Source: Hylemonella gracilis (GTDB lineage Bacteria > Pseudomonadota > Gammaproteobacteria > Burkholderiales > Burkholderiaceae_C). Taken from it: DNA of 64,000 nt. Where the stretch lies: NCBI RefSeq assembly GCF_004328645.1, contig NZ_CP031395.1:2319501-2383500 (forward strand), read 5' to 3'. Both the position numbers and the translations under genes were made by a program. The notes beneath the pieces are model-generated. The model worked only from the letters and a program-made list of their open reading frames with translations. It was not told the origin of the DNA and did not search any database. This document shows, piece after piece, positions 920-52,769 of the stretch; positions within the stretch are counted from its first letter, which is position 1, and every line of letters begins with the position of its first letter.

Positions 920-2463
920 TCAGCGTGACAGTCGGAAACTGGCCACGGTCTGCACCAGATCATTGGCCTGCTCGCGCAGCCCTTGCGCCGCCGCGGCAGA
1001 CTGTTCCACCAGGGCGGCATTCTGTTGAGTCATCTGGTCCAGGTGGTGCACGGCCTGGCCGATTTCTCCCAGAGTGTGCGCCTGCGCGGCGCTGGAACTG
1101 GAGATGTGGGTGATGATCTGCGTGACCTGGTTGACGCTGCGCACCACCTCGCCCATGGTTTCGCCGGTTTCACTCACTAGGCGGCTGCCGCCATCCACGC
1201 GCTCGATGGAGGCGGAGATCAGTGACTTGATCGTGCGCGCGGCCTCGGCCGAGCGCTGGGCCAAGGAGCGCACCTCGCCCGCCACCACGGCGAAACCCCG
1301 TCCCTGTTCGCCCGCGCGGGCGGCTTCCACGGCGGCGTTCAGGGCCAGGATGTTGGTCTGGAACGCGATGCCATCGATCACGCCGATGATGTCGCCAATC
1401 TGGTTGGACGCGTTCTGGATATCGCGCATGGTGCGGACCACTTCTTCTACCATGGCACCTCCGCGATGCGCCACTTGCGAGGCGGTCTGCGCCAGGGCGT
1501 CCGCTTGGCGCGCGGCCTCGGCGTTTTGGCGCACGCCATCGCTCAATTGGGCCATGGCCGCACCGGTTTGCTCCAGGCTGCTGGCAGCCTGCTCGGTGCG
1601 GTTGGAGAGATCCTGGTTGCCCGAGGCAATTTCGCTAGAGGCGAGTCGCACTTCATCGGCCGAGCTGCGCACGGAGGCGATGGTGACAGCCAGCCTCTCC
1701 TGCATTTCGGAAAGGCTCAGACTCAAGGCGGCCAGCTCGTCACCACCCCGGGCGTCGATGCGCTGAGTCAAGTCCCCGTCGGCGATATGCGCCGTCTGCC
1801 TGCGCGCTGTTTCCAGGGGCTGTGTCACGGAGCGGGTGATCATCAGGGCCACCGCGACGCCCAGAACCGACGCCAGGCCGAGCAGCGCGACGACCAGTCC
1901 GCGCGTCAGACGGGCCTGGTCTTCCATCTCGGCGGTGGCCTTGGCCACGCTGTCGTGGGTGTAGTCCGCATAGGCGTTGATCGCCTCCAGATAGGTTTCC
2001 ATGGCGGGAATCAGATCGCCGGAAATCCCCGCGATCACGTTCTCGCCGGCTTCCTTTTTCTTGATCAACCCCTCTCGCAGGTCTTGGTAGACCTTGCGCT
2101 TTTGGTTGATGACCTCGACCAGATGCACGGCTTCGGGGCTTGCTCGATGCCGTTGAGTTCCTTCTGCACGGCGTCGATGCGGGCCGACGTCTCCTTGGAT
2201 TTGCGAGTGAATGCCGTAACGAAGACCGGGTCGTTCACGGCCATGCTGACCAGCCTACGCTGGATGCTGACTTCGGTGAGGCCGGCCCATTGCCGCGAAA
2301 GATCGAGCGCGTGCATGTCCACCTCGACCAGTCGGTGGATGCGGCTGTTGAGCTGGCCCACGCGGAGCACGCCCACGACCGAGCCACCGATCAGCAGCGC
2401 CATGACCAGCGCGAAGCCTGCGAGCACGCGGTTGCGCAGTTTCCAACGATTCAGGAAGTGCAT
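920..2463 (-). CDS. methyl-accepting chemotaxis protein, frame broken by a 1-nt deletion
   Basis: This is an inner-membrane chemoreceptor that signals to CheA/CheW. The N-terminal part (start ATG at 2463, frame open to 2065) has a transmembrane helix (residues about 12-32) and the start of a four-helix-bundle periplasmic sensor. The second part, in another frame (2128 down to 920), has the rest of the sensor, a second membrane helix, HAMP, and the signalling domain with the hairpin-tip motif [20 protein letters not shown]. The two parts overlap in translation: residues after [10 protein letters not shown] in frame 1 are an out-of-frame reading of [14 protein letters not shown] in frame 2. One extra base around 2127-2135 restores a receptor of about 514 residues. 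No CheR-binding pentapeptide is visible at the C-terminus. Ligand unknown. The break is probably a sequence error, though real decay is possible. Confidence 0.85.
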
Positions 2464-2737
2464 GGCATGCCCTCGCTCATTTTTGTGGACGTGGTTTGGA
2501 TGAACTGGCTCACAGGGGAATACATGAAGAGAGATGTTGTAGGCAGTCGTGGTTGCGTTGAAAAACGCCCGGCGAGCATATATGTCGCTCTTGACATTTC
2601 AATGTCAAAGAAAAGTCTTGGAGAAGATGGCGCTTGCCTGTCAGATGGAGCAAGGGGTCGGCTCATGGCGGTGCGTCCAACGGACCGTTCGGGGCTGATT
2701 CCCTGCCCGGAGAGGGGATCGCTTAGACTCAAACACC
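2464..2737. other. intergenic region between chemoreceptor and aroQ
   Basis: This 274-base divergent spacer is visibly AT-richer than its surroundings. It should hold the promoters of the minus-strand chemoreceptor and of aroQ. The only clear structure is an 18-base inverted repeat at 2591-2608, listed separately. I see no convincing small reading frame or terminator. Confidence 0.6.
2591..2608. promoter_or_regulatory. perfect 8-bp-arm palindrome, operator-like
   Basis: TTGACATT-TC-AATGTCAA has two perfectly complementary 8-base arms around a 2-base centre. Each arm begins with TTGACA, identical to the sigma70 -35 consensus, so a divergent pair of -35 elements would overlap an operator here. 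It lies in the spacer between the chemoreceptor and aroQ. The binding protein is unknown. It is not an FNR box, because the spacing between TTGAC and GTCAA is eight bases instead of four. Confidence 0.45.
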
Positions 2738-3271
2738 ATGAAAACCCTCTACGTCTTCAATGGTCCCAACCTCAACCTGCTGGGCACGCGCGAGCCGGGC
2801 ATCTACGGCGCGCAGACCCTGGCCGATGTGCAGGCCCTGTGCGAACGCGCGGCGGCCCAGCATGGGTTGAAGCTGGATTTTCGTCAAACCAACCACGAAG
2901 GTGCGCTGGTCGATTGGCTGCACGAAGCCGGGCGGGCTCAGGCCCAGGGCACCGCCATCGGCGTGGTGCTCAACGCCGGCGCGTACACCCACACCAGCAT
3001 CGCCCTGCACGACGCGATCAAGGGCGCGGGTGTGCGCCTGATCGAGCTGCACATCAGCAACGTCCATGCCCGCGAGGCCTTCCGCCACCACAGCTACATC
3101 AGCCCCGTGGCCTCGGCCGTGATGGCGGGCTTTGGCGTGGGCGGTTATGCCTTGGCCATCGATGGCCTGGTGATGCAACATCGCGCCAGCGAGGCTGTGG
3201 TGCGCGAGGGCCGCGCGCTCGAAGCACCGGCTGCGCCCGAGGGCGTCGCGCGCCTGCCGTCCAAGGACTGA
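2738..3271 (+). CDS. aroQ: 3-dehydroquinate dehydratase, type II
   Basis: This cytosolic enzyme converts 3-dehydroquinate to 3-dehydroshikimate, the third step of the shikimate pathway. The family signature NGPNLNLLGTREPGIYG is at residues 8-24, including catalytic Arg18 and Tyr23. The substrate-binding QTNHEG stretch, the NAGAYTHTS loop and the catalytic-His segment ELHISNVHARE all follow in the usual order. The protein has 177 residues; the family core is about 145-150, so the last 25-30 residues (Ala/Glu-rich) form an unusual but poorly conserved-looking tail. It is monocistronic and ends 19 bases from the convergent andR gene. Confidence 0.95.
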   Translation: MKTLYVFNGPNLNLLGTREPGIYGAQTLADVQALCERAAAQHGLKLDFRQTNHEGALVDWLHEAGRAQAQGTAIGVVLNAGAYTHTSIALHDAIKGAGVRLIELHISNVHAREAFRHHSYISPVASAVMAGFGVGGYALAIDGLVMQHRASEAVVREGRALEAPAAPEGVARLPSKD

Positions 3272-3290
3272 GCGCACAGACTCGCCTCGG

Positions 3291-4343
3291 TCAGCGCCGC
3301 GCCGTCAGCGTGACCGAAGGCGGCACGCCATAACGTCGGCGATAAGCCTGGGCGAAACGCCCCAGGTGAGTGAAGCCGCAATCGAAGGCGATGGTGGCGA
3401 CGGACGTCGTCTCCTGGGCTGCCCCGTTCCTCGGTTCGCTTGCCCCGGCGCGCAGCAGAGCGTGGGCACGTTCCAGGCGCAGGGCCTGCAGGTGCTGCAT
3501 GGGGCTGGTGGCGCGAAAGCGCTTGAAGGCTTCCAGCAGAGTGCGCGTGGGCGTGCCGGCCGCCGTGGCGATGTCGACCAGGCGCAGGGCCGAGCCCGCG
3601 TGTTCTTCCATGTAGCGTTCGGCGCGCAGCACGCAGGCCGGCGCGATGCCCGTGATCTGCAGGTTGGCGTCGTGCGTGTCCGCGCCCAGGCCCTGGCCTT
3701 CGTGCAGCAGATGCACCAGGAGGCGTTCCATCTCGACGGCGACCAAGGGATGGCGCCGTGCCGTGTCCAGTAGCGCGGGTGAGGCCGCGAGCAGGCGCAG
3801 TTGGTCCAGCCAGGCCTGCAGCGCGGGGCGGCGCAGATCCAGCGCTGCGTGAAAGCGGGCGGGCATCTCGTCCAGACCCAGGTGGGCCTCGACCATGCGG
3901 CGGTCCAGGCGCAGTACAAACTGCTCGCAATCCGGAGACAGATCGGCCAGGAAGGAATGACCCGGCGCGCAGATGACGCCGCTGCGGGTGCTGGCCGTCA
4001 GGGTCTGGCCGGCGCTGCGTACCTGGGCGTGCCCGCGCAGGCAGAACATCAGCAGGTGGTAGTCCTCCACCGCCTCCACATCCACCCGTGTGGGCTGGCC
4101 GAAGAAGGCGATCGTGCCCAGGCCCAGGTCGCCCAGGCGGGTGTAGTCCATGTGGGAACGCGATGGTGTCCCCAAACCTGCGCCGAGTGGCTGCAGGCGG
4201 TGCGGTTGCATCACGCGCGAGATGCGTTCGCGCGCTTCGTCCAGGTCGCCCGATTCAAACAGTCGGTGCGCGCGCAAGGCCTGTGGTTCGAACGGTCCCG
4301 GGACGGCTGTGACGGCGACTGCGGTACGAGGGGCAAGTTGCAT
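3291..4343 (-). CDS. andR: AraC/XylS-family regulator of the anthranilate dioxygenase genes (AndR-like)
   Basis: This 350-residue cytosolic activator has an N-terminal AraC-ligand-binding-like domain (residues about 20-220, with the segment VEDYHLLMFCLRGHAQV) and a C-terminal double helix-turn-helix (about 240-350, ending in the typical FDCGFTHLGRFAQAYRRRYG pattern). Domain order and sequence resemble AndR of Burkholderia anthranilate dioxygenase clusters, and the gene is divergent from the dioxygenase genes, as expected. ATG 4343 was chosen because the residues encoded further upstream are Arg-rich and unlike the family. It probably activates the 4586-11817 gene set in response to anthranilate or a related carboxylate; this is inferred from family and position. 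Confidence 0.85.
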   Translation of the reverse strand: MQLAPRTAVAVTAVPGPFEPQALRAHRLFESGDLDEARERISRVMQPHRLQPLGAGLGTPSRSHMDYTRLGDLGLGTIAFFGQPTRVDVEAVEDYHLLMFCLRGHAQVRSAGQTLTASTRSGVICAPGHSFLADLSPDCEQFVLRLDRRMVEAHLGLDEMPARFHAALDLRRPALQAWLDQLRLLAASPALLDTARRHPLVAVEMERLLVHLLHEGQGLGADTHDANLQITGIAPACVLRAERYMEEHAGSALRLVDIATAAGTPTRTLLEAFKRFRATSPMQHLQALRLERAHALLRAGASEPRNGAAQETTSVATIAFDCGFTHLGRFAQAYRRRYGVPPSVTLTARR

Positions 4344-4468
4344 GGCCGGTTCGGTGTTCCAAGGAAGAGCCCGGAAGCAGGCAGAAATCAGCAAGAAGCG
4401 CGCCAAGCCCCGCAGGCGTTTCTTCGTGCAGATCAAGCCGCGACGTGAAAGCCGCGCGAAACGGACAG

Positions 4469-4497
4469 TGCATGCCTCGGTCTGCCACAAACGGATA
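4469..4497 (+). promoter_or_regulatory. candidate XylS/AndR-type half-sites upstream of andAc
   Basis: The 242-base divergent spacer between andR and andAc holds TGCC-N6-GGATA (4483-4497), close to the XylS-type half-site TGCA-N6-GGNTA, next to a weaker TGCA-N6-GGTCT (4469-4483). The two abut with about 14-base spacing, unlike the 21-base spacing of the classic Pm promoter, so only one may be real. Confidence 0.35.
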
Positions 4498-4585
4498 GCC
4501 GTGCGACCGTGAGACTTCAACAATGAGGCCATGCCCCGCCACGCCGACATGGCGCAGGTCGGGGTAAGTCGCAAGGAGAACACTT

Positions 4586-5905
4586 ATGAATGACGTCGTT
4601 GACATCGGTGCACCGAAAACGGGCGCGAATATGGGGGCAGGGGCCTCGGTGCCTGCCCAAGAAGCCGTGGTGCATTTCCCCCGGGCGGACGGTTCGCGCA
4701 CGCCCTATAAGGTGTTCAGCTCGCAGGAGGTCTACGAGCGCGAGCAGGAACGCATCTACCGCGGTCCGGTCTGGAGCTTCGTGGCGCTGGAATGCGAGAT
4801 CCCGAACCCGGGCGACTACAAAAGCACCTTCGTGGGCGACACGCCCGTGGTGGTGACGCGCACGCCCGAAGGCGAACTGGCCTGCTGGGTCAACCGCTGC
4901 GCGCACCGGGGCGCCATGGTCTGCCGCAATGCGCGCGGCAACGCCAAGGAACACACCTGCGTCTACCACCAGTGGAGTTTCGACTGCAAGGGCAATTTGC
5001 AGGGCGTTCCTTTTCGGCGCGGCAAGGACGGCGCGCCCGGCATGCCAGCCGACTTCAAGACCGCCGAACATAGCCTGAAAGCTTTGCGCGTGGACAGCTA
5101 CCAGGGCATCGTCTTCGCCACCTTCAGTGCGGAGACACCGCCGCTGCCCGAGTACCTGGGCGCTGAAATGCGGCCCTGGGTGGACCGCATCATGCACAAG
5201 CCCATCGTCTACCTGGGCTGCACGCGGCAATTCGCCAAGAGCAACTGGAAGCTCTATTACGAGAACGTGAAGGACCCGTACCACGCCAGCCTGCTGCACC
5301 TGTTCCACACCACTTTCAACATCTTCCGCGTGGGCATGAAAGCGCGTTCCCTGCCCGACGCCACGCACGGTCTGCACAGCATCATCACCGCGACCAAACC
5401 CAAGGAAGAAAAAGAAGACACGGCCGACGCCTACAAACAGCAGGCCATCCGCTCCATGGACGAAGGCTTCCACCTGGAGGACGACTCGGTGCTGGGTTTC
5501 GTCTCCGAGTACGAGGAAGACTGCACCAACCACATCCAGACCATCTTTCCGCAACTGGTGCTGCAGCAGATCCACAACACGCTGGTCTGCCGCCAGGTGC
5601 TGCCCAAAGGGCCGGATCAGTTCGAGCTGGTGTTCCACTTCTTCGGCTACGAAGACGACACGCCCGAGCTGCGTGCCTTGCGCATCAAGCAGGCCAACCT
5701 CGTCGGGCCGGCCGGCTACATCTCGATGGAAGACACCGAGGCGACGGAGTTGGTGCAGCGCGCCACTCTGCGCGACGGTGACGCCGCTTCCATCATGGCG
5801 CTGGGGTTGACCGACGGTGATGTCGAGCCGCGGCAGGACACCATGATCACCGAGAATCTGATCCGCAAGTTCTGGGCGGGGTACCAGAAGCTCATGGGCT
5901 ATTGA
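4586..5905 (+). CDS. andAc: anthranilate 1,2-dioxygenase large (alpha) subunit, AndAc-type Rieske oxygenase
   Basis: This is the catalytic subunit of a three-component Rieske dioxygenase that adds O2 to the ring of anthranilate, giving catechol, CO2 and ammonia. The Rieske [2Fe-2S] ligands are visible: C105-x-H107 and C125-x2-H128 in CAHRGAMVC...CVYHQW. The mononuclear-iron segment ENVKDPYHASLLHLFH carries the family Asp, His and His residues. The 439-residue protein resembles AndAc of Burkholderia more than the BenA/AntA type, and is more distantly like the salicylate 5-hydroxylase subunit NagG. The start has a strong AAGGAG at 4573-4578. The beta subunit follows 24 bases downstream. Assignment to anthranilate rests on sequence resemblance plus the AndR-like neighbour; another aminobenzoate or salicylate is possible. 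Confidence 0.88.
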   Translation: MNDVVDIGAPKTGANMGAGASVPAQEAVVHFPRADGSRTPYKVFSSQEVYEREQERIYRGPVWSFVALECEIPNPGDYKSTFVGDTPVVVTRTPEGELACWVNRCAHRGAMVCRNARGNAKEHTCVYHQWSFDCKGNLQGVPFRRGKDGAPGMPADFKTAEHSLKALRVDSYQGIVFATFSAETPPLPEYLGAEMRPWVDRIMHKPIVYLGCTRQFAKSNWKLYYENVKDPYHASLLHLFHTTFNIFRVGMKARSLPDATHGLHSIITATKPKEEKEDTADAYKQQAIRSMDEGFHLEDDSVLGFVSEYEEDCTNHIQTIFPQLVLQQIHNTLVCRQVLPKGPDQFELVFHFFGYEDDTPELRALRIKQANLVGPAGYISMEDTEATELVQRATLRDGDAASIMALGLTDGDVEPRQDTMITENLIRKFWAGYQKLMGY

Positions 5906-5929
5906 AACGGACCGAAGAGGACAGCGACC

Positions 5930-6466: not shown

Positions 6467-6538
6467 ACCCACCCCCGACTCTCGCCCACTGGGTGTGGCT
6501 CGTATCCCCCAGTTCTCGCAAGGGAACCCTACGAGTTC

Positions 6539-6582: not shown

Positions 6583-6620
6583 TTGAAGGGCCTTTGGGTT
6601 GTTCAACAGCACGGAGCTTT

Positions 6621-6965: not shown

Positions 6966-7037
6966 AACTTCGGGCTTTGTCGACCTTGGGTCGAGTCCGG
7001 GTTGGGTTTCCTTTGATTTTTCCTACATGGAGCACGC

Positions 7038-9273: not shown

Positions 9274-10250
9274 ATGAAACTGGCTCGTTGGCTGCCCTGG
9301 GTGGCGCTGTTGTTGCTGGCGGTGTTCCCGCTGGTGGCGCCCTCGCTGGGGCTGGACTTTTACGTGGGCTTTGTGCGGCGCGTGCTGATCTTTGCGCTGG
9401 CTGCCGCGGGCTTGAACTTCATCCTCGGTTTCGGCGGCCTGGCCGCCCTGGGGCACTGCGGATTCCTGGGCGTGGGCGCCTACACGCTGGTCGCGCTGGC
9501 GCATGCCGGTGTGCACAGTGCCTGGCTGCTCTGGCCCGCGGCCCTGCTGGTGGCGGCGCTGGCTGCCGCCCTGATCGGCCTGGTGGCCCTGCGCACGCGT
9601 GGCGTGTATTTCATCATGATCACGCTGGCCTTCGCGCAGATGCTCTATTACATCGCGGTGTCACTGCGCCCTTATGGCGGGGACGACGGCTACAACCTGG
9701 TGACGCCCACGTCCTTCGGCGTGGGTCTGAACACGCTGAACGATGGTGTTTTCTACTGGGTGGTGTTGGCCTTGTTCGCGGGTGCCATGCTGCTGTTCAA
9801 CCGCGCCACGCGTTCACGCTTTGGCCACGCGCTCATGGGCGTGCGTGACAACGAAACGCGCATGCGGGCGCTGGGTTTCCCGGTGCGCCGCATCCAACTC
9901 GCCGCCTTCGCCATCGCGGGGGCGTGGCGGGCCTGGCCGGGGCCATGCTGGTCTCGCACAACAACTTCGCCAGCCCGTCCATGATGCATTGGACGCAATC
10001 GGCCATGCTGCTGGTGATGGTGGTCATCGGTGGCGTGGGACAGCGCTGGGGCGGTCCGGTGGGGGCGACCGTGTGGATCGGACTGGAAGAAATCGTCAAG
10101 GCCTATACCGAATACTGGCATTTGCCGCTGGGCGTGCTGCTCGTCACCATCGTCTTCCTCGCGCCGCGCGGCATCGCAGGCTTGCTGCAAGGCCGTGCGC
10201 TGACGACACGCGCCGCGACCAGCGCGGCGGCCCAGGAGGGCGCGGCATGA
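9274..10250 (+). CDS. ABC importer inner-membrane permease, LivM type, frame broken by a 1-nt deletion
   Basis: The first frame (from ATG 9274, after a GAGAGG) carries a normal LivM-type sequence with about eight membrane helices and the family segment AAAGLNFILGFGGLAALGHCGF, up to AAFAIAG. It then turns to unrelated residues. The following frame continues the protein as GLAGAMLVSHNNFASPSMMHW... to the stop at 10250. Adding one G to the G5 run at 9918-9922 gives AIAGGVAGLAGAM and a protein of about 325 residues, the usual size. The stop overlaps the next start (ATGA), typical of an intact translationally coupled operon. I regard the break as a likely sequence error. Confidence 0.87.
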
Positions 10251-16076: not shown

Positions 16077-17092
16077 TCAGAGCGCCGTGGCCGCAGGTTC
16101 CTGCGCGGCGATTTCCTCTTGCGGCGCGACCGTCACGGCCACATGCAGGCCGTGGGTGCCGCCGCCATGGATGACACCGCGCAGCGGCGGCACGTCGGCG
16201 TAGTCCCGGCCCATGGCCAGCGTCACGTAATCCCCCCCGGGCGTGCCCCAGCCGTCGCGGGCATTGGTCGGGTCCAGGTCGTACCACCCGCCGGTGGCCG
16301 TGTCCTTGGGTGTGCCATCGCCATCATTTGGGGCCTTGCTGTCCTGGCGCAGGTCGGGCAACCACAGTGACACCCAGGCGTGGGAGGCATCGCTGCCGAT
16401 CAGGCGTGGTTGGCCGGGAGGGGGTGTCGTCAACAGGTAGCCGCTGATATAACGCGCGGCCAGGCCCATGCTGCGCAGGCAAGCCAGCATGATGTGGGCG
16501 AAATCCTGGCAGACACCCTGGCGCAGTTCCAGGGCCTCCAAGGCCGAGGTATGAACTTCGGTGCTCTGGGTCTCATAACGGAAATCCGCGTGGATGCGCG
16601 CCATCAGCTCGCGCGCGGCCTGCAGGGCGGACCTGCCCGCTGCGAAGCTGGGCCGGGCGTAGGCGGCGAAAGCCTCATGGCGTGGTGCGCGGGGGAGGAA
16701 AAGCTGAATTCAGCGGCCGGCTGCCAGGCCGCGCGGGCTTGATAGCGGTACTGCGTGCGCAGTTCCTCCCAATTGATCGTGCTGACGGTGCGCGAAGCGG
16801 GGAGCGGCGCACGCGTGCTCAAGACGCTGCGTGCGGTCACGCGCAACAGGGTGTGCGGGCGGTCCAGGGCGAAGAAGGCGCGGTGGTTGCCGTACACGTC
16901 GACGGACCAGGCGTCCGGGCCGGTCGGCGCGGTACGCGGGGCTTCCTCGCTCAGGCCGGTCTCGACCTCCAACTGGTGCGCCTGCACGGTCTGCCAGGGC
17001 GTCTGCGGGGGGCGCAGGTAGGCGATGTGCTGGGCCAGCTCGACCATGCTGGCGTAGTCGTAGCGGGTCTCGTGGGTGATGTGCAGGTCCAT
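16077..17092 (-). CDS. bacterial transglutaminase-like protein, frame broken by a 1-nt deletion
   Basis: The N-terminal frame from ATG 17092 (MDLHITHETRYDYASMVELA) carries the Bact_transglu_N beta domain up to EFSFSSPAHH. The C-terminal frame carries the transglutaminase core with the catalytic Cys in RQGVCQDFAH, the His in SHAWVSLWLP and the Asp in YDLDPTNA. Adding one base at 16679-16680 (GG to GGG on the plus strand) joins them as HHAHEAFAAYARPSF and gives about 338 residues, normal for this family. These proteins usually travel with the ATP-grasp/alpha-E protein, as here (77 bases downstream of it in the same direction). The joint function is unknown; peptide modification is suspected. 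The break is likely a sequence error. Confidence 0.85.
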
Positions 17093-17169
17093 GCCGGTCT
17101 GGGGTCCGAGGTGCGCGCGCGGTTCAGTGCGTTTTGTGCCGGGGCTGTTTCGGGTATGGGAGCGCAGGT

Positions 17170-20138
17170 TCAGTGTTCCAGGCTCTGGCTGGCTTGTCCG
17201 GCATGGGTGAAATAGCGTTGGCTGATCTCGTCGGAGATGCGCCAGGCGGCTTGCTCGCAATCGGTGAGCAGGGCTTGCAGCGGCGTGGCGTCGTCGGGTC
17301 CATCGCCAGTCATCTCTGCCCTTCGCGTCACCGGGTCCAGTGCCCAGGCATCGGCCGCCGGCAAGAGCGTGGCCAGCGCGTCCTGGTCCACGGGCAGGCC
17401 GGACAGGCGGGCCAGATGACTTTGCAGGTTCTGCACCACCCAGCGCAGCGATCGCGGGTTCTCCGTGTCGCGCAGCAGCAGGTCCAGCAGTGCGGTGGTG
17501 TCGTGGCTCAACTGGTGCTGGGCGCGGAAGGTGATGGTGCTGTCGAAGAGGGCGAGCAGGCTTTCGAAGCCGCCGTCTTCCTCTTGCACTGCGCCGCTGG
17601 AGAAACTGCTGGCCAGGGCCGGCGCGAGAAAACTCAGGCGCTCGATGTGCCGGCCGACGGAAAGCAGGCGCCAGCCGTCGTCGCGCGTCATGCGGTCGGT
17701 CTGCCCGCCCGTGATGGCCGCGAGGTGGATGCTGGTCGCGTCCAGCAGGCGCAGGGCCTCGGTGACGGCGTAATCGTTGTATGCAGCCACACCCGTGCCC
17801 CCGCCCTGGCTGCCCAGCCGAGCGCTGCGCTGCGTGAATTCCGTCTCGGCCTCGGTGATGACTTTCCAGTGTTCCTGCGAGAGCCGTTCGCGCACGCCAA
17901 AGGCCGCAGTCTTGAGGGCGCGCAGGCTTTGCCCCACGCTGGCGGCATGCTGGGTGCCGCCCAGGTTGGCGATCAGGGTGCGCGCGAAGACGCGCCGTGC
18001 CTGGGTGGCCGAGGGCGCGCCCGGCGGCACCAGGCCGTTGCGCTCGGCCAGGTCGCTGAGCCAGTCCAGCAAGGTGGTGGAACGGGTTTCCTGTTCGCCA
18101 AAGCCGGCTTGCAGGCCCATGCCGGCGCTCAGGCTGTCGAGGGCGAGGCGGGCCAGGCGCAAGGCGTTCTCGGCACGTTCGGTGTAGCGACCCAGCCAGT
18201 AGAGGTTTTCACCGGCCCGGCTGGTGACCAGGCGCTTGCGCTTGTCCTGTGGCTCGTGCCGCGAGGCGGGCATGGCCGCGGGGGGCGCGCCGATCAGCGT
18301 GGTTCGGTCCACTTCGCCCGCCGTCAAAACCCAGGTGTCGGCGCTGCTGCCGCCGCGCTGCATGGAGGCCATGCCCGCGCTGCCGTCCGACAGGCGGGTT
18401 GCCAGCCGCGTCAGGCCGCCGGGAAGAACTCGCCAGCGCGGTTGCCCCGCGCGCGCGCCAGTGGTTTCCAGCCCGTCGCACATGGCGAAGACGCGCATCA
18501 GCGCCGGACGCGGGGCAATGCGGTTGACGTGCCAGGTCGGCGTCTGCGACAGGGGCAGGTAACGCTGCACGGTGTGCCACTCGCCTTCGCGCAGCAGCCG
18601 ACCCATCCATTGGTCCAGCTCTTCGCGCTTCAACTGGCGGCAGAGCACGGTCTCCGCAGATCCCGAGGATGCAGTGTAAGTGGGTTTGATGACACACTCG
18701 GCCAGGCGTTGCTGCACGTCCCGCACGCTGGCTTCCTCGCCGCACCACCAGGTGGGCAGGGACGGCAGGGACAGCGTTTCGCCGAGCAGCTCCTGCGCCA
18801 GCGCGGGCAGGAAACCCAGCAGGGCGCCGGATTCGAGGAAGGCCGAGCCCGGCGCGTTGGCCACGATCACATTGCCCGCGCGGATGGCCTGCAGCAGCCC
18901 CGGCACGCCCAGGGTCGAATCGGGGCGCAGCTCCAGCGGGTCGAGGAATTCGTCGTCCAGGCGCTTGAGCAGCACGTGCACCGGCTCCAGCCCACGCAGG
19001 GTCTTCAGGTAGAGCTTCTGCTCGCGCACGGTCAGGTCGTTGCCTTCCACCAGGGTCAGGCCCAGGTAACGCGCCAGGTAGGCATGCTCGAAGTAGGTTT
19101 CGTTGTAGGGGCCTGGCGTGAGCAGGGCGATGTGCGCGTCCTGCCCGGGGCTGACGTGGGCGGCGCTCATGCGCTTGAAGCCTTCGATCAGCGCACGGTA
19201 GGTGGCCGCCAGGTGCTGCACCCGCATGCCCTCGAAGGCCTGCGGGAACTGGCGTGAGATGGCGAGGCGGTTTTCCAGCAGATACCCCAGTCCCGAGGGC
19301 GCCTGGGTGCGCTGAGAGACGATCCACCAGTGCCCGTCGGGGCCACGCGCCAGGTCGAAGGCGGCGATGTGCAGATGTACTCCGCCCACCGGGGCCACCC
19401 CGTGCATGGCGCGCAGGTAGCCGGGATGCCCCTGGACCAGGGCCGGCGGCAGCAAGCCGCTTTTCAGCAGGCGCTGTGGGCCGTAGACATCGGCCATCAT
19501 CTGTTCGAGCAGGCGCGTGCGCTGCAGCACGCCAGCTTCGATGTGCTGCCATTGCTCGGGCGTGACGATGAAGGGGAAGAGATCGAGTGACCAGGGCCGT
19601 TGTGGTCCGCTGGCGTCGGCGTAAACGTTGTAGCTGACCCCGTTGTCGCGGATCTGCCGCGCCAGACTGGCCGCGCGCGGGTTCAGGTCCGCGAAACCCT
19701 CCGTGCCAAGGTGCTCGAAAAACGCGGTCCAGTGGGGCGCGAGGGTGGGGTGGGGCGGGGCTGAGGCCTGCGGGGACGGCGTTGGGGTTTTCGCAGCAGC
19801 CGACGACGAGGTGGGCCATGGTGGGGTCGGCGTGGCGACGGGCGCAAGCGGTGCGACGGAGACGCTGGACGCCCCAGTCACCATGTTCTGGGCAGCCAGG
19901 GGGGCTTGACACCAGCGGCCGTGACGGTGGGCTGCACCGCCGATCCGCCCAGGAGCACCGCCGCGTGGCTGGGGGAGGTGTTGGGCGTGGGCGCCGGAGT
20001 TGCCGGGGCGTTGGGGGTGCGACCGCGCAACTCGTCAAAGTGCTCCAGGCCGGACGGCAGGGCCAGACGCAGCACCTGCTGCGTGGTGGAGGGCAGGGTG
20101 TCGTCGTCGAAAAGGTCTGGGCTGGCTCGGTCCACCAT
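17170..20138 (-). CDS. circularly permuted ATP-grasp plus alpha-E domain fusion protein, frame broken by a 1-nt deletion
   Basis: The long frame below 19884 encodes a circularly permuted type 2 ATP-grasp domain (signature RQIRDNGVSYNVYADASG, then RPWSLDLFPFIV) followed by an alpha-E helical domain beginning near SRAGENLYWLGRYTERAENA. In many bacteria these are two separate genes; here they are one chain. The true N-terminus lies in another frame: ATG 20138, MVDRASPDLFDDD...LPSGLEHFDELRGR, the usual family start. Adding one G to the G6 run at 19899-19904 joins it through a Pro/Ala/Thr-rich linker and gives about 989 residues. ATP-grasp proteins of this kind are predicted ligases for a peptide or amine; with the transglutaminase next door, a peptide-crosslinking or tagging role is suspected but unproven. 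Confidence 0.85.
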
Positions 20139-20277
20139 GGCGCTATTGTGACATCGGCCCTTGCGGCCGGGGTCGGAGTTCAAGTCACATTTCAGCCCAT
20201 CCGCGGACGGTCGCGGTGGTTTACAGGAGCTGGCTACACTGGCGGCCCTTCGGGAAGCTTCAAGAGTCTGTGTTGCC

Positions 20278-21896
20278 ATGAGTTTGTTCAAAGCCGCTTC
20301 CACGGTCTCGTTGCTGACCCTGGTGTCGCGCATCACCGGGCTGGCGCGTGAGTTGCTGATCGCCGCCGCCTTCGGCGCCAGCGCCCTCACCGATGCCTTC
20401 AACGTCGCGTTTCGCATTCCCAATCTGTTCCGTCGCCTGTTCGCCGAAGGCGCCTTCAGCCAGGCGTTCGTGCCCGTGCTGGCGACCGTGAAGGAGCGGG
20501 AAGGGCCAGAGGCGGCGCGCCACCTGATCGATCGCGCGGCGACGGTGTTGGCCTGGGTGCTGCTGCTCGTCAGCATCGTGGGCGTGCTGGCCGCTCCGGC
20601 CCTGGTCTGGCTGCTGGCTTCGGGCCTGCGCGAGTCCGCAGCCCATGGATCGGCCGGCCATGGGGCGGTGAGGCCCCACGATGCGGCGGTGCTGATGACG
20701 CGCTGGATGTTTCCCTACATCGCCTGCATGTCGCTGGTGGCTCTCGCGGCCGGGGTGCTCAACACCTGGCGACGCTTTGCCGTGCCCGCGGCCACGCCGG
20801 TGCTGCTCAATGTGGCGATGATTCTGGCGGCGCTCTTCGCCACTCGTTGGGGCGCGCCCTGGCTGCTGGCGCATGGCATCGAACCCATCTATACGCTGGG
20901 GTGGGCGTGCTCTTGGGCGGGCTGCTGCAATTGGGCGCGCAGGCGTGGGCGCTGAAACGCATGGAACTGCTGCCGCGCATCGGCTTGAGTCCCCGGGCCT
21001 TGCGCGCCGCCTGGTCCGACCCCGGCACGCGCCGGGTGCTCACGCTGATGGCGCCCGCCCTGCTGGGCGTGGGCGTGGCGCAACTGTCGCTGCTCATCAA
21101 CACGCAGATCGCGTCCTACCTCGCGCCGGGCAGCGTCAGCTGGCTGAGCTACGCCGACCGCCTGATGGAATTCCCGGTGGCCTTGCTGGGTGTGGCGCTG
21201 GGCGTGGTGCTGATGCCGCAGTTGGCGGCCGCGAAATCCATGAGCGACGTGGCACAGGGCGCGGCACGCTACTCTGAACTGCTGGATTGGGGCCTGCGCC
21301 TGGTGCTGCTGCTGGCACTGCCCTGCGCGTTGGCCTTGCTGCTGTTTGCCGAGCCCCTGACGGCGGTGCTCTACCACTATGGCGCCTTCACCGCGCGCGA
21401 CGTGCAGATGACCGCAACTGCCTTGATGGGTTGGGGCGCAGGCCTGGTGGGCGTGGTTGCGATCAAGGTGCTGGCGCCAGGCTATTACGCCAGCCAGGAT
21501 GTGAAGACGCCGGTACGCATCGCCATCGTTGTGCTGGTGCTCACGCAATTGCTCAACCTCGTGCTCGTGCCCTTGTGGCAGCACGCGGCGCTGTCGCTGT
21601 CCATCGGCATTGGCGCGCTCGTGAACGCGTTGTGGCTGTTGCTGGGCCTGCGCAAGCGCGGCAGTTACCGGCCGCTGCCGGGCTGGGGTGCTTTCACCGC
21701 GCGGGTGGTCCTGGCCTCCGCGCTGCTCGCGGCCTATCTGTACTGGGCGGCCCAGGCCTGGGACTGGACAGCCTTGCAGGCCCGGCCCTGGCAGCGTATC
21801 GGTCTCTTGAGCGTCATCGTGACGGGTGCGGGTGCGGTTTACCTGGGAGCGGCCTGGATGGCGGGACTGCGCTTGCGGGTGTTGCTGCGACGTTGA
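20278..21896 (+). CDS. murJ: lipid II flippase MurJ, frame broken by a 1-nt deletion
   Basis: MurJ moves lipid II across the inner membrane for peptidoglycan synthesis. From ATG 20278 the sequence MSLFKAASTVSLLTLVSRIT and the segment AFNVAFRIPNLFRRLFAEGAFSQAFVPV are textbook MurJ. The frame is lost at GIEPIYTLG and continues in another frame as VGVLLGGLLQLGAQAWALKR through WLSYADRLMEFPVALLGVALG to the stop. Adding one G to the G4 run at 20898-20901 restores about 539 residues with 14 membrane helices. Residues near 120-135 (ESAAHGSAGHGAVRPHDAA) form a loop insertion. MurJ is essential in most bacteria, so a true null here is improbable and the break is probably an error. Confidence 0.9.
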
Positions 21897-40228: not shown

Positions 40229-42733
40229 ATGACGTCAGCCCTTGCCGCCGGAGCATCGCCTGCCGCGGCATTGCCCGTGGAAGCTGCTACCGGGCCTGCC
40301 TCCTCCGCCCTTGCCCAGCCGACCTCCACGCCCGTCGTCGATGTTGGCGCGGAAATCAACGCTGAAACGGCGGCTCAAGCACCCGATGTCCGCGCGCTGA
40401 TCGACGACCCCCAGTTCTGGCCCGCTTTTGGGCAGGTCGTGTCCGGCCAGGATGCGGCCAGCGTGCCATTGTGGGATTCCAGTCTCGCCATCGGTGGCAT
40501 GTACTGCGCTGCCTGCGCGCTCAATGTGGAAGACGCCCTGCGCCGCCTGCCGGGCGTGGAGTCCGTCAGCGTCAGCGCGGGCAGCCAGCGTGCACGCCTG
40601 CGCTGGCGCGAAGGCGTGGCCCGGCCCTCCCAGTGGCTGGAGGCGGTGCAGGCGGCGGGCTACCGTGCCGTGCCCGCGCAGGACCAGTTCGCCAGCGAGC
40701 GGCGTCGTCAGGAGTCGCGCGGCGCCCTGTGGCGCTGGCTGGTGTCGGGCTTCTGCATGATGCAGGTCATGATGTACGCGTGGCCTGCCTACGTGGCGGG
40801 GCCTGGCACTGCCATGGGCGACCTCAGCGGCGAGCAGGAGCAGCTGTTGCGCTGGGCCAGCTGGGTGCTCACGCTGCCGGTCTTGCTCTTCTGCTGCGGC
40901 CCCTTCTTTTCGGCGGCCTGGCGTGACCTGACAAGCGGTTTGCGGCAGCGTCGCTTCAGCCTGCGAATCGGCATGGACGTGCCGGTGGCCCTGGGCATGG
41001 GCATTACCTTCATCGTCAGCACGCTGGGCACCTTCGAGCCCCAGGGCATCTTCGGGCGCGAGGTGTACTTCGACTCGCTGACCATGTTCGTCTGCTTCCT
41101 GCTGACTGGACGCTGGCTGGAACAGCGCTTGCGCAACCGCACGGCCGGCGCACTCGACGCCCTGATGAACCGACTGCCCGAAAGCGTGCTGCGTCAGAAA
41201 CCTGAGGGTGTGGCCGGGGTGCCGAAGTACGAGCGAGTGGTCTTGCACCGAGTGCGCGTGGGCGACGTGCTGCGCGTGCTGCCTGGCGAAGCGTTTCCTG
41301 CTGACGGCGTTCTGCTCGATGGCCTCTTGCCCAACAGCACGCAGGTCGACGAAGCCCTGCTGACCGGTGAATCCCGGCCGCTCAAGCGGGGGCCGGGCGA
41401 CGCCATCATTGCGGGCAGCCACAACCTGGTGGCTCCGGTGCTGATGCGGGTCGAGCGCGTGGGCAAGGACACGCGTTATGCGCAAATCGTCGCCCTGATG
41501 GAGCAGGCCGAGGCCAGCCGGCCGCGCATGGCGCAACTGGCAGACCGGCTGGCACGGCCTTTCCTGTTCGTCGTGCTGCTGGCGGCTACCGCAGCGGCGG
41601 CCTACTGGTGGCAGGTTGACGCGGCGACAGGGCAGGGCGGGCCGGGCCATGCCCTGATGGTGGCCGTGGCCGTGCTCATCGTCACCTGCCCCTGCGCGCT
41701 CACCCTGGCCACGCCGGCGGCCTTGCTGGCGGCGGCGGGCACGCTGGCGCGTCAGGGCGTGCTGGTGCGCCGCCTCTCGGCGCTTGAAACCCTGGCCGGG
41801 GTCGACACCTTTGTATTTGACAAGACGGGCACCCTGACCAGCGATGCCTTGACATTGCAGGCCGTGCGCACCCGCGAAGGCTGGACGCGCGGCCAGGCCC
41901 TGGCCTGGGGCGCGGCGCTGGCGCGGCAGTCCCTGCATCCGCTCTCGCGCGCCCTGGTCAAGGCCGCCACCACGGTGGCGTGGGAGACCATGCCGGTCGA
42001 CGAGGTACGGGAGCACAGCGGCCTGGGGCTCACGGGCACGGTGGATGGGCGGACTCTGCGCCTGGGCTCACCCGCGCATTGCAGCGTGCCGGCGCAGGCC
42101 GTGTTCGGGCCGCATGCCATGCTGGCGGATGCACAGGGTTGGTTGGCCACCTTCGAGTTCGGCGAGGAGATCAGGCCGGATGCGCGCGCCACGATCGCGG
42201 CGCTGCGCGAACAAGGGCTGGCGGTGCGGGTGTTGTCGGGTGACGCGCCCGCGCCGGTGGCGCGCGTGGCCCGTGAACTGGGTCTGGACCCGGCGGATGC
42301 ACGGGGCGCTTGCGCACCGGATGACAAACTGGAGACCTTGCGGCAATTGCAGGCTCAGGGCCGCACGGTGGCGGTGGTTGGCGACGGTCTGAATGACGGC
42401 CCCGCATTGGCGGGCGCGCAGGTGTCTTTCGCGTTTGGTCCGTCCGTGCCCCTGGCGCGCGCCCGGGCCGACTTCGTGGTGTTGGGCGAGCATCTGTGCA
42501 GCGTGGCGCAGGCCCAGGCCATTGCCAGGCGCACCTTGCGCATCGTGCGCCAGAACATCGCCTGGGCCGTGGCCTACAACGCGGCCTGCATCCCGCTGGC
42601 GGTGATCGGACTGTTGCCAGCCTGGGCGGCGGGCCTGGGCATGGCCGGCAGCTCCCTGCTGGTCGTGCTCAACGCGCTGCGCCTGACCCGGCCTGTCGGG
42701 CTGCGAGCCACCCCCGGCCTGGAAGGCGCCTGA
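40229..42733 (+). CDS. ccoI: copper P1B-type ATPase CcoI for cbb3 oxidase assembly
   Basis: CcoI is an inner-membrane copper-transporting ATPase needed to mature the cbb3 oxidase. The 834-residue sequence has an N-terminal HMA domain with GGMYCAACALNVE, eight membrane helices, the transport motif CPC in IVTCPCALTLATP, the phosphorylation motif DKTGTLTSD, the SLHPLSRAL motif and the hinge GDGLNDGPALAGAQ. The first 80 residues are Ala/Pro/Thr-rich and not conserved. ATG 40229 is chosen; ATGs at 40184 and 40202 lie in or beside the FNR box. Its stop overlaps the ccoS start (TGATG). Confidence 0.92.
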   Translation: MTSALAAGASPAAALPVEAATGPASSALAQPTSTPVVDVGAEINAETAAQAPDVRALIDDPQFWPAFGQVVSGQDAASVPLWDSSLAIGGMYCAACALNVEDALRRLPGVESVSVSAGSQRARLRWREGVARPSQWLEAVQAAGYRAVPAQDQFASERRRQESRGALWRWLVSGFCMMQVMMYAWPAYVAGPGTAMGDLSGEQEQLLRWASWVLTLPVLLFCCGPFFSAAWRDLTSGLRQRRFSLRIGMDVPVALGMGITFIVSTLGTFEPQGIFGREVYFDSLTMFVCFLLTGRWLEQRLRNRTAGALDALMNRLPESVLRQKPEGVAGVPKYERVVLHRVRVGDVLRVLPGEAFPADGVLLDGLLPNSTQVDEALLTGESRPLKRGPGDAIIAGSHNLVAPVLMRVERVGKDTRYAQIVALMEQAEASRPRMAQLADRLARPFLFVVLLAATAAAAYWWQVDAATGQGGPGHALMVAVAVLIVTCPCALTLATPAALLAAAGTLARQGVLVRRLSALETLAGVDTFVFDKTGTLTSDALTLQAVRTREGWTRGQALAWGAALARQSLHPLSRALVKAATTVAWETMPVDEVREHSGLGLTGTVDGRTLRLGSPAHCSVPAQAVFGPHAMLADAQGWLATFEFGEEIRPDARATIAALREQGLAVRVLSGDAPAPVARVARELGLDPADARGACAPDDKLETLRQLQAQGRTVAVVGDGLNDGPALAGAQVSFAFGPSVPLARARADFVVLGEHLCSVAQAQAIARRTLRIVRQNIAWAVAYNAACIPLAVIGLLPAWAAGLGMAGSSLLVVLNALRLTRPVGLRATPGLEGA

Positions 42734-42869
42734 TGGACATCCTGTATTTGCTGATTCCCCTGTCGGTCGCCCTGGTGTTTTTTGTTCTGGGGGGCTGTGG
42801 TGGGCGATCCAGCGCGGCCAGTTCGAGGACCTGGAAGCCGAAGGAGAACGCATCTTGCGCGACGACTGA
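42733..42869 (+). CDS. ccoS: cbb3 oxidase maturation protein CcoS, frame broken by a 1-nt deletion
   Basis: CcoS is a small single-pass membrane protein needed for cofactor insertion into the cbb3 oxidase. From ATG 42733 the frame reads MDILYLLIPLSVALVFFVLG, the invariant CcoS start, and then is lost. Adding one G to the G6 run at 42789-42794 continues it as GLWWAIQRGQFEDLEAEGER and ends ILRDD at the TGA 42867-42869, a normal 45-residue CcoS. It sits between ccoI and ccoN, the usual place. The break is probably an error. Confidence 0.88.
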
Positions 42870-47556: not shown

Positions 47557-47588
47557 GCGGGCGGTTTTCAAAATTCATGGAGCAAGAC

Positions 47589-47828: not shown

Positions 47829-47899
47829 CAGGCGGCGGGTTGACCCTGGCAAGAGTTTCGAATCAACAAGAACGCAGCCGCAACGAGGAGAACACAAAT

Positions 47900-48124: not shown

Positions 48125-48196
48125 GCGCCTGGACGCGGAGGCCGCGATGGCCTTGCGGCAGAATGCTCGGTGTTTCCGAGTTGCCACGAACCTGCC

Positions 48197-48676: not shown

Positions 48677-48723
48677 CGGACAGGCGGCGGAGCGAACCTT
48701 AGCCCGGCCAGGACAATCAAGCG

Positions 48724-49482
48724 TCAGTTGCAGGCGGGCTGGACGGCGTTGACCAGCCGGGTCAGGGCGTCGGTGTCGAGGATGCGCACGTAACGTTGTT
48801 TGACCTCGACGATGCCATCTTCCGCGAAGCGCGAGAAGGTGCGGCTCACGGTTTCGAGCTTCAGGCCCAGGTAGCTGCCGATTTCCTCGCGGGTCATGCG
48901 CAAGATGAGTTCGGACTGCGAGAAGCCACGCGCGTGCAGGCGCTGCACCAGGTTCAGCAGGAAGGCGGCCAGCCGCTCCTCGGCGCGCATGCTCCCCAGC
49001 AGCAGCATGACGCCTTGGTCGCGCACGATCTCGCGGCTCATGATGCGGTGCACGTGCCGCTGCAGGCCGTTGATTTCGCGCGACAGGTCTTCGATGCGCT
49101 CGTAGGGCATGACGCAGACTTCCGCGTCTTCCAAGGCCACGGCGTCACAGCTGTGCAGGTCGTTGACGATGCCGTCCAGTCCGATGATCTCGCCAGCCAT
49201 CTGGAAGCCGGTGACCTGATCGCGCCCGTCCTCGGTGGTGATGCAGGTCTTGAAGAAGCCGGTGCGGATGGCGTAGAGCGATTCGAACTTCTCGCCCGCG
49301 TGGAACAGAGCCTCGCCGCGCTTGACCTTGCGTCGGGTGGAGACCACATCGTCAAGGCGTTCCATCTCCTCGCTGCTCAGGCCCACGGGCATGCACAGCT
49401 CACGCAGATTGCAATTCGAGCAGGCAACTTTGATCGTGTGCAGATCCATCGAACGCAGGTTGATGGCGGGGCGGGACGGCAT
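48724..49482 (-). CDS. fnr: Fnr, oxygen-sensing CRP-family regulator
   Basis: Fnr is the cytosolic oxygen sensor that binds TTGAT-N4-ATCAA boxes as a dimer when its [4Fe-4S] cluster is intact. The 252-residue sequence has all four cluster cysteines: C21-x2-C24-x5-C30 and C112 (HSCDA). A CRP-like sensor and dimerisation helix follow, then a winged HTH with EEIGSYLGLKLETVSRTFSRF, in which Glu, Ser and Arg read the TTGA half site. It is divergent from hemN, and the FNR box between them could serve both genes. Likely targets in this window are ccoI, ccoN, hemN and possibly ligA or its LysR gene. Confidence 0.94.
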   Translation of the reverse strand: MPSRPAINLRSMDLHTIKVACSNCNLRELCMPVGLSSEEMERLDDVVSTRRKVKRGEALFHAGEKFESLYAIRTGFFKTCITTEDGRDQVTGFQMAGEIIGLDGIVNDLHSCDAVALEDAEVCVMPYERIEDLSREINGLQRHVHRIMSREIVRDQGVMLLLGSMRAEERLAAFLLNLVQRLHARGFSQSELILRMTREEIGSYLGLKLETVSRTFSRFAEDGIVEVKQRYVRILDTDALTRLVNAVQPACN

Positions 49483-49567
49483 GGCGGCTATTGTGACATG
49501 GTTGAGTTCGTCGGCGGAACCCGGCCAGCCGAGGTGCGCGGGCGTGGGAGGGCGAATCGGTCACCTT

Positions 49568-49581
49568 TTGATGCAAGTCAA
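49568..49581. promoter_or_regulatory. FNR box between divergent fnr and hemN
   Basis: TTGAT-GCAA-GTCAA fits the FNR consensus. Its centre is 62 bases before the hemN ATG and 92 before the fnr ATG. Class II activation would start the hemN transcript near 49616. Autoregulation of fnr is also possible. Confidence 0.8.
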
Positions 49582-49636
49582 GATGGAGGGCGCGTGCGCG
49601 GTGCACAGTCTCGTACCGATCAGCAGGCTTTTGTCC

Positions 49637-51081
49637 ATGCACAAAGAAACAGACACCGCCATCGCCCCCGACGCACCGTTCTCACTCACGCCCGAGTTGC
49701 TGCGTCGCCACGATGTGAGCGGTCCGCGCTACACCTCCTACCCCACGGCGGATCGTTTCGTCGAGGCCTTTGGGCCCACGGACTATGCCCAGGCCCTGGG
49801 GCAGCGTGGGGGCGCGGGCGCGGGCGCCCTGCCTTTGTCGCTGTATGTGCATATCCCCTTCTGCGAATCGCTGTGTTACTACTGCGCCTGCAACAAGATC
49901 ATTACCAAGCACCATGAGCGCGCGGCCGAGTACCTGCGTTATCTGGCGCGCGAGGTGGATCTGCATCTGGAGGCCCTGGGCGTGGCTGCGGGGGGACATG
50001 CCCCGGCGATCAGCCAACTCCATCTGGGGGGGGCACCCCGACCTTCCTGAACGACGCGGAACTGCGTTCGCTGATGCGCATGCTGCAACGCGCCTTCCAC
50101 TTCACGCCCGGCGGGGAGTATTCCATCGAAGTCGATCCGCGCACCATCGATCCGGCTCGCCTGAATGTGCTGGCCGAGCTGGGTTTCAATCGCCTGAGCT
50201 TCGGGGTGCAGGATTTCGACCCCGCCGTGCAGAAGGCCGTGCACCGCGTCCAGCCTGCGCGCCAGGTGTTCGACCTGGTGGCGGCCGCGCGGGAGCGCGG
50301 CTTTGAGTCCGTCAACATCGACCTGATCTACGGCCTGCCGCTGCAGACGCCCGAGTCCTTCGCGCGCACCCTGGACCAGGTGGGTGAGTTGCGACCGGAC
50401 CGGATCGCGTTGTACGCCTACGCCCATCTGCCCGAACGCTTCAAGCCCCAGCGCCGCATCGATGATGCCCAACTGCCGGGCGCGGCGGCCAAGCTCGCCA
50501 TGCTGTCGGACGCCCTGGCGCGCCTGCAGGGCGCGGGATACGTCTATGTGGGCATGGACCATTTCGCCCTGCCGGGCGACGCGCTGGCGGTGGCGCAGCG
50601 CCAGGGTCGCCTGCACCGCAATTTCCAGGGTTACAGCACCCAGCCCGATTGCGATCTGATCGGATTGGGTGTGTCCGCCATCGGGCGCATCGGCGCGACC
50701 TACAGCCAGAACGCCAAGACGCTGGAGGAATACTACGACGCGCTGGACCGGGGCAGCTTTCCGGTGCAGCGGGGTTTGGCGCTGTCGCGCGACGACCTGG
50801 TGCGCCGCGCGGTGATCATGGCCCTGATGTGCCAGGGCGAACTGATGTTCGAGTCCATCAACTTGGCCTGGCTGATCGACTGCAAGACTTATTTCGCGAC
50901 CGAGCTCGCGGCCCTGCGCGGTCTGGCCGAGCAGGGTCTCGTGACGCTGGATCTGGACGAGCGGCGCGGCGGCATCCAGGTGACAGCGCTGGGCTGGTAC
51001 TTTGTGCGTGCCATCGCCATGGTGTTTGACCGTTACCTGCAGGCCGATCGCAACCGCGCGCGTTTCTCGAAGATTCTTTGA
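49637..51081 (+). CDS. hemN: oxygen-independent coproporphyrinogen III oxidase, frame broken by a 1-nt deletion
   Basis: HemN is a radical SAM enzyme that makes protoporphyrinogen IX without oxygen and so supplies heme under the same low-oxygen conditions as the cbb3 oxidase. From ATG 49637 the frame carries SGPRYTSYPTADRFVEAFG and the radical SAM site YVHIPFCESLCYYCACNK, then breaks after QLHLGG. The next frame carries GGEYSIEVDPRTID, FNRLSFGVQDFDPAVQKAVHR and YAYAHLPERFKPQRRI to the end. Adding one G to the G8 run at 50026-50033 gives LGGGTPTFLND, the invariant family motif, and 481 residues. Upstream sits a perfect FNR box. Confidence 0.9.
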
Positions 51082-51095
51082 GCCAGAATGCTGGC

Positions 51096-51935
51096 ATGTC
51101 ATCCACCCTTGCCTTGACGGCCCTGCTGATGGGGCTGGCCGGTGGGCCGCATTGCGTGGCCATGTGTGGTGCGGCCTGCGCCGGCCTGGCGCGCGCGGCG
51201 CGCGGTGGCGTTCAGACGACGCAACAGCCGATCCACTTCCGGGGCGGCGCGTCCAGCGCGCTGCCCGTGGTGAGTTTGCCCAGCAGCGCCGACGTGTCCG
51301 ATCTGCCCCTCGTGCTGTTGTTCCAGTTGGGGCGGGTGCTGGGTTACGCGATTCTGGGGGGCCTGGCCGCGGCTTCGATGCAGGGCCTGGGTTGGCTGAC
51401 AGTCCATTCGGCGGCCCTGCGACCCCTCTGGTCACTCTTGCACGTGGCCGCGATCGTGCTGGGCCTGGTCCTGCTGTGGCGGGCCGCGCAACCGGTCTGG
51501 CTGGAGCAGGGCGCGCAGGCGCTGTGGCGCGGCGTCCAGCGCATGGTTCGGGGCCGTGCAGGCACCGACGAAGGCGCGGGTGGCAGGAGCGCAGGCGCTG
51601 GCGTGCTCCTGATCGGCAGCCTGTGGGCCTTGCTGCCCTGTGGCTTGCTGTATTCCGCCTTGCTGGTCGCCACCTTGACGGGACAGGCCTGGCAAGGCGC
51701 GGTCGTCATGGCCTTGTTCGCGCTGGGCACCGCCGTGTCCATGACCCTGGGGCCCTGGTTGTGGCTGCGCCTGGGGCAGGGTGCGGGCTTGCGCAGCCCG
51801 CTCCTGCAGAATCTGGGCGTGCGCCTGGCCGGGCTGGCTCTGGCCCTCAGCTCGGCCTGGGCGCTCTGGATGGGCCTGGCGCATGACACCGCGCCCTGGT
51901 GCGTGGTTGGCTTGGCGGGGCTCACAACGGCTTGA
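51096..51935 (+). CDS. TauE/SafE- or DsbD-like membrane protein of the cbb3 region
   Basis: This 279-residue inner-membrane protein has about six helices and two conserved Cys motifs, LAGGPHCVAMCGAACAG near the start and WALLPCGLLYSALLVA in the middle, as in the sulfite-exporter-like/DsbD_2 family often found next to cco or hemN genes. Such motifs suggest copper or thiol handling during oxidase assembly rather than sulfite export. The His/Cys PHC-x3-C site is intact. It follows hemN by 14 bases, and its 3' end overlaps the convergent phosphopantetheinyl transferase gene by 14 bases. Confidence 0.82.
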   Translation: MSSTLALTALLMGLAGGPHCVAMCGAACAGLARAARGGVQTTQQPIHFRGGASSALPVVSLPSSADVSDLPLVLLFQLGRVLGYAILGGLAAASMQGLGWLTVHSAALRPLWSLLHVAAIVLGLVLLWRAAQPVWLEQGAQALWRGVQRMVRGRAGTDEGAGGRSAGAGVLLIGSLWALLPCGLLYSALLVATLTGQAWQGAVVMALFALGTAVSMTLGPWLWLRLGQGAGLRSPLLQNLGVRLAGLALALSSAWALWMGLAHDTAPWCVVGLAGLTTA

Positions 51936-52769
51936 TCAGGCCGACGTGCCAGGGTTGCGCCGTTTGATCCACCAGGGGAGGCGTACCCGCAGAGGGACGA
52001 TCGGCATTCGGGCCGGATGCCGGCTCCGGGGATGCCGTCCGCGACCAGCGCAGGGGCAGTGCTGTGTGTCGCGGGTCCAGCGGCCAGGTCAGGGCCAGGG
52101 TGCAGTCCTCGGTCTGCCAGACCTGCCCGTTGAACGATGCACCGTCCACTGCGAGCGTGGTGTGCAGGCGCGGCAGCAGGGCCCAGTCCAATGGCCGTGC
52201 CTGCTGCTTGAACCAGGCTTCCTTCAGCGTCCAGAGGGCCAGGAAGCGCTGGCCTTGCTCGGATGGCTCCGCCAGTGCGGCCAAAGCCCTTTGTTCCAGG
52301 GGGAGCCGGCGACCTGGACCAGTGCGTGCCAGTCGCGGGCGCCGGAACGGCCCGCCGTGGTTTCGAGGTCCAGGCCGACAGCCACCGGTGCAGCGGCAGC
52401 GCAGACCCAGTCTCCGCTGTGGCTCAAGGCCAGGTGCAGGGGCGCATCCCCCATGCCCTGTGCCTCAAGACGTGGCGGTCCATGGTCGGAGGCAGAGATC
52501 GAAAAGGTCCCCGCGGGCAGCAGGGGCTGTAGCAAGCGCCGCAGCAGAAGGCGCCCCGCGATGAACTGAGCCCTGCGCCGGGGCGCGGAGATGGCGTTCA
52601 GGCGCTCGTGCTCGGAAGGGGAGAGCCCCGTGAGGTCGGCCGGCGAGGGGCTGCCATCGGGGCGAGCAGTCTGGCCGACCGCGGTGGGCGACGGGCCACG
52701 CAGCAATTCGGAGACCCGTGCCAGGGTTAGCCAGATGGCGGGCGCTGGGCCGTCGGACCAGGCTGGCAC
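51922..52769 (-). CDS. 4'-phosphopantetheinyl transferase (Sfp/AcpT type), frame broken by a 1-nt deletion
   Basis: This enzyme would load the phosphopantetheine arm onto the acyl carrier protein of the polyene pathway. The first frame begins at GTG 52769, preceded by AAGGGG seven bases upstream, and carries HLALSHSGDWVCAAAAPVAVGLDLETTAGR with the GxDxE-type metal motif (GLDLE). The second frame carries FLALWTLKEAWFKQQ, the W-x-x-KEA-x-x-K motif. Adding one base in the G5 run at 52299-52303 joins them as GSPLEQRALAALAEPSEQ, giving about 282 residues. It is the last gene of the minus-strand aryl-polyene set. The break is likely an error. Confidence 0.85.

Follow-up and report, generated by a model that had tools for sequence, protein, structure and literature searches.

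The closest described counterpart of the case considered here is the genome of Streptomyces albus SM254, a product of P6-C4 chemistry and the HGAP3 assembler. By the excerpted account of its assembly, Quiver left 205 insertions or deletions (indels) in its 7,170,504 bp, and G/C homopolymers contained nearly all of them (PMC4832174); by our own division, this residual rate amounts to 1 per 35.0 kb. Another parallel is offered by the Kastor nanopore drafts, where, in the excerpted description, false deletions come after short runs, mostly of 4–5 equal bases, and split genes (PMC12007338). The assembly of Hylemonella gracilis NS1 (CP031395) is described, in the excerpts of its paper, as made from PacBio RS II data with P6-C4 chemistry, HGAP3 and AHA scaffolding, and the same excerpts name Illumina in connection with RNA-seq alone and do not name Pilon, a silence that does not exclude polishing (PMC9948732). 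Here we consider a window of 64,000 bases, positions 2,319,501–2,383,500 of this one-contig genome of 3,822,245 bases, in which eight genes are each split between two reading frames. With very high confidence, we attribute all eight breaks to consensus errors left in the PacBio assembly and not to real mutations.

The split genes lie four on the plus and four on the minus strand, and every break touches a plus-strand G run of 4–8 bases. In DNA alignments, the window has one base fewer than Hylemonella gracilis Niagara R (G008) at all eight break sites and one base fewer than a second relative (G007) at seven, the eighth site, in the phosphopantetheinyl transferase gene, being without a G007 alignment. 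Niagara R is also the best match for the CcoN-like protein of the window (97% identity) among the named records searched, a set that may omit the window's own genome. The first-pass annotation of this DNA had claimed that eight genes are each split by one missing base, that one plus-strand G would repair each whichever strand the gene is on, and that most breaks sit in G runs of 4–8; the split is borne out at all eight sites, as is the place at such runs, and the annotation's placement of the transglutaminase break at 16679–16680 was about 12 bases off, the run actually lying at 16691–16695. In window coordinates, which are used unless stated otherwise, the genes are as follows.

920..2463, minus strand, chemoreceptor, split at G run 2135–2138; a 514-amino-acid open reading frame in G008
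2065–2463, minus strand, N-terminal piece of the chemoreceptor, without a Pfam match
920–2128, minus strand, second piece of the chemoreceptor, with HAMP and MCP signalling domains
9274..10250, plus strand, LivM-type branched-chain amino acid permease, split at G run 9918–9922
16077..17260, minus strand, transglutaminase-like protein, split at G run 16691–16695
17170..20576, minus strand, circularly permuted ATP-grasp/alpha-E protein (domains by Pfam), split at G run 19899–19904
20161..21896, plus strand, murJ (lipid II flippase), split at G run 20898–20901
42733..42869, plus strand, short ccoS-like gene flanked by a P-type ATPase gene and a ccoN-like gene, split at G run 42789–42794
49637..51081, plus strand, hemN-type radical-SAM coproporphyrinogen oxidase, split at G run 50026–50033
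51922..52979, minus strand, 4′-phosphopantetheinyl transferase, split at G run 52299–52303

Several of these breaks can be followed through protein families. For the LivM-type permease a single Pfam model, BPD_transp_2, is split 3–188/189–268 across two frames, and the two frames of murJ match Pfam MurJ 1–150 and 147–440, with one base more near the break in all five aligned relatives. Bact_transglu_N and Transglut_core lie in different frames of the transglutaminase-like gene, as do 4PPT_N and ACPS in the phosphopantetheinyl transferase gene, where both matches are weak and below the Pfam cut-off; in the hemN-type gene, Radical_SAM and HemN_C are found in the downstream frame and the N-terminal part in another. 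Both relatives keep the permease, the transglutaminase-like gene and the hemN-type gene in frame, and G008 does so for the transferase. The ATP-grasp/alpha-E protein has its N-terminus inside the open reading frame 19878–20576, and its break site is poorly aligned, with a single open frame running through it in G008 and G007 (1161 and 1013 amino acids between stops). The piece of the short gene at 42733..42869 that was searched against Pfam matched no family; it and its neighbour are presumably ccoS and ccoN.

The same kind of event was sought across 1,233,500 bases of the genome (32%), of which 964,697 were aligned to fetched parts of Niagara R. The scan used third codon positions to ask which genome's mismatches keep phase across an indel, followed by an open-frame filter. 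Before the filter there were 65 changes in NS1 and 23 in G008, many of them gene boundaries; after it, 34 in-gene shifts remained in NS1 against 7 in Niagara R. Of the 34 NS1 shifts, 28 (5 in the window, 23 outside) are losses of a single base no more than 2 bases from a G/C run of at least 4, and insertions at such runs numbered 0; of the seven Niagara R shifts, one has a run of this kind within 3 bases. The remaining six NS1 candidates (genome coordinates 2631449, 2649009, 3230394, 3230445, 3235328 and 3246397) are without such a run within 2 bases, several are weakly aligned and two are one-base insertions; they were left out of the working list. That list, on which the figures for strand, rate and run length rest, comprises 34 events, 8 of them from the window and 26 from the rest of the sample: the 28 run-associated deletions plus window sites 2339402, 2362292 and 2371801, a filter-dropped site at 2549094, and 2021705 and 2165414 from DNA alignment scans (all genome coordinates, as are the sites outside the window given below). 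Site 3206282 was kept despite weak alignment (71%), site 2030196, flanked by a C run and a G run, was assigned to C, and the coding frame at 3204126 is uncertain. An isolated one-base insertion at 55933 of the window (75% identity) passed the phase test, failed the open-frame filter and was not counted. A tblastn screen had listed 24 NS1 and 12 G008 frame changes, many of them at mispredicted gene starts; it recovered only some of the eight window sites and gave way to the DNA alignment scans and the third-codon-position test.

The apparent loss rate rises with the inferred true length of the run, the 34 events being distributed over lengths 5 to 9 as 11/992, 14/218, 6/40, 2/10 and 1/1, or, for lengths 5 to 8, as 1.1%, 6.4%, 15% and 20%, on small counts. 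Outside the window the events occur at 1 per 34.7 kb (26 events), or at 1 per 39.3 kb with the automatic scan alone (23). The events at runs are deletions only, at a rate that climbs with run length and at a density matching that of SM254, and they point to sequencing error. The likeness to SM254, as the excerpts of that report present it, takes in the chemistry and assembler, a GC-rich genome, errors in G/C homopolymers and a near-equal density, but there Illumina reads found and fixed the errors, whereas the evidence for NS1 is comparative and mostly from coding DNA (PMC4832174). The Kastor drafts differ, by their excerpted description, in being nanopore data in which A/T runs are about twice as frequent as G/C, whereas the runs in NS1 are of G/C (PMC12007338). 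In the mechanism that we envision, P6-C4 reads would under-call G and C homopolymers, the HGAP3 consensus would then be left one base short in some runs, and a one-base loss in coding DNA would shift the frame and split the gene; the missing base would belong to the run, with homopolymer under-calling as the probable cause.

Whether such breaks could be real depends on the genes that carry them. At 19 of the 26 outside events the gene was scanned with Pfam through its G008 copy (18 proteins, all with matches), and the genes hit, named by their Pfam matches, presumably encode FtsH, an M50 protease, a phosphoglucomutase/phosphomannomutase, DnaG, Hsp70, CTP synthase (pyrG), Mfd, a coproporphyrinogen oxidase, a CHASE2-adenylate cyclase (two events), an FlhA-type FHIPEP protein, UvrB, a UvrD-type helicase, PutA, an EPSP synthase-cytidylate kinase fusion (aroA-cmk), DnaB, two transporter proteins and a ShlB-type secretion protein. 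Both dnaB and dnaG are the sole match in NS1, with open frames of 239 amino acids against 474–478 in two relatives and of 282 against 662–664 in relatives, respectively. Growth is impossible without DnaB, DnaG, MurJ and FtsH, and since the sole dnaB and dnaG are split together with murJ, ftsH and pyrG, a truly broken cell could not live, which argues for artefact over decay. The earlier suggestion of a sequencing or consensus fault, not decay, finds strong support in the PacBio origin of the assembly, in the split sole replication genes, in the G/C-run deletions and in the matching published error rate. On comparative sequence evidence, the breaks are almost certainly ordinary residual assembly error and not a real biological feature; their biology is ordinary.

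When mismatch repair is lost, slippage at runs is what one expects to see, so real strand-slippage mutations in such a strain would fit run-associated events as well; in a targeted look mutS itself (3496924; outside the working list) was found to lack one base at a C run in NS1 and to have a single open frame in G007, G008 and G013. A mutator would, however, have split the sole dnaB and dnaG, murJ, ftsH and pyrG alike, leaving neither replication nor wall synthesis possible; real decay would be expected to spare essential single-copy genes, and here the sole dnaB and dnaG are cut short. It would also have produced 28 deletions against 0 insertions at runs of at least 4, and third-position constraint persists in the next frame past the breaks. 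We regard such a mutator as very improbable, and the mutS break could be mistaken for a mutator genotype. Coding constraint that goes on in the next frame is likewise what one would see if programmed frameshifting or transcriptional slippage at G/C runs read the genes through, and runs can in principle be slippery. This would have to operate in some 33 genes on both strands, in which no common signal was seen except the run and whose relatives are in frame, and both the pattern and the rate match a known technical error in the excerpted SM254 report (PMC4832174); we find it scarcely credible. Still less credence can be given to the idea that G/C runs are truly shorter in NS1, in dozens of genes that include dnaB and dnaG, with the frames restored by genome-wide slippage in transcription or translation.

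Several observations weigh against residual consensus error as the explanation. Run lengths come from assembled sequence rather than reads, and the shortage of long runs in NS1 is weak: it shows for runs of at least 8 (9 in NS1 vs 16 in Niagara R) and not for runs of 7 (34 vs 32). The genes at seven of the 26 outside events (865980, 2021705, 2165414, 2313604, 2575880, 3204126 and 3576585) fall outside the Pfam scan. The spread of events is also uneven, with 8 in the window against 1.8 expected (P = 0.0005); the automatic scan missed three of the window's eight sites, and like for like there are 5 window events against 1.6 expected (P = 0.022), which for a window picked from some 60 in the genome is not remarkable. 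More broadly, 18 of the 34 events fall within 2.20–2.46 Mb, about one quarter of the aligned sample, and our guess is that low local read depth lies behind this cluster. The 2.20–2.46 Mb region is near, not at, the change in GC skew at about 2.65–2.7 Mb.

The first-pass annotation had further taken the fault to be specific to plus-strand G, and had proposed that the rest of the assembly be scanned for plus-strand G-run frameshifts. In the 32% sampled, G-run deletions were indeed found outside the window (17 of 26), and so were C-run deletions (9 of 26). The plus strand of the window is itself rich in G, carrying 298 runs of G and 175 of C at lengths 4–8, and the expected share of G was drawn from local counts of G and C runs of like length. 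Measured in this way, the window's eight events, all in G runs, give P = 0.037. G runs account for 25 events of the whole working list of 34 (20.2 expected, P = 0.057) and for 21 of the 28 that the automatic scan yields by itself (16.2 expected, P = 0.041). Outside the window, they account for 17 of 26 against 14.9 expected (P = 0.25), a share that fits the local excess of G runs, or for 16 of 23 against 13.0 in the automatic scan (P = 0.13), and where the plus strand is C-rich, G accounts for 4 of 8 events against 3.1 expected. The view that only plus-strand G runs are affected fails on the 9 of 34 events at C runs and on mutS, C-run deletions having hit dnaB, mutS and a solute-binding protein gene. 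A mild G preference is possible, but the pattern itself led to the choice of window, and we consider it unlikely that the consensus error truly prefers plus-strand G over C beyond the availability of runs.

As for which base was lost, plus-strand G had been proposed for every site, and it remains the natural guess, although any single base restores the frame and the aligned relatives do not tell which base it was. Only 4 of the 34 event sites have a longer, unbroken run in G008. Such runs are also rare in G008 where the NS1 run is undamaged (27%, 18% and 0% for lengths 5, 6 and 7), and it is because unbroken runs are rare even at these undamaged sites that G keeps its place. That the lost base was a C, as the relatives' C inside the run (GGCGG) might indicate, was considered and set aside, since undamaged runs are themselves seldom unbroken in G008 and the interruption is uninformative.

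Extrapolating from 34 events per 964,697 aligned bases gives roughly 135 genome-wide, so that the public NS1 genome probably contains more than 100 false frameshifts, and its gene counts and pseudogene calls, as well as any gene losses claimed on its basis, need checking. By the excerpts of the NS1 paper, 4-amino-4-deoxychorismate lyase and 3-hydroxyisobutyrate dehydrogenase are listed as absent (PMC9948732), and these are the two that we looked at among the five functions called absent in those excerpts. The pabC- and HIBADH-like genes (601894–602646 and 1503181–1504023) are present and unbroken in NS1 and score below curated cut-offs, likewise in two relatives. Because NS1 resembles the two relatives in this respect, the absence of those two functions does not look to be caused by run errors.

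The alignments to Niagara R that were inspected ran in reverse in the blocks at 2.39–2.51, 2.774 and 2.814 Mb and forward in the window and at the anchors at 3.16 and 3.57 Mb; a large inversion between NS1 and Niagara R probably lies in 2.39–2.83 Mb.

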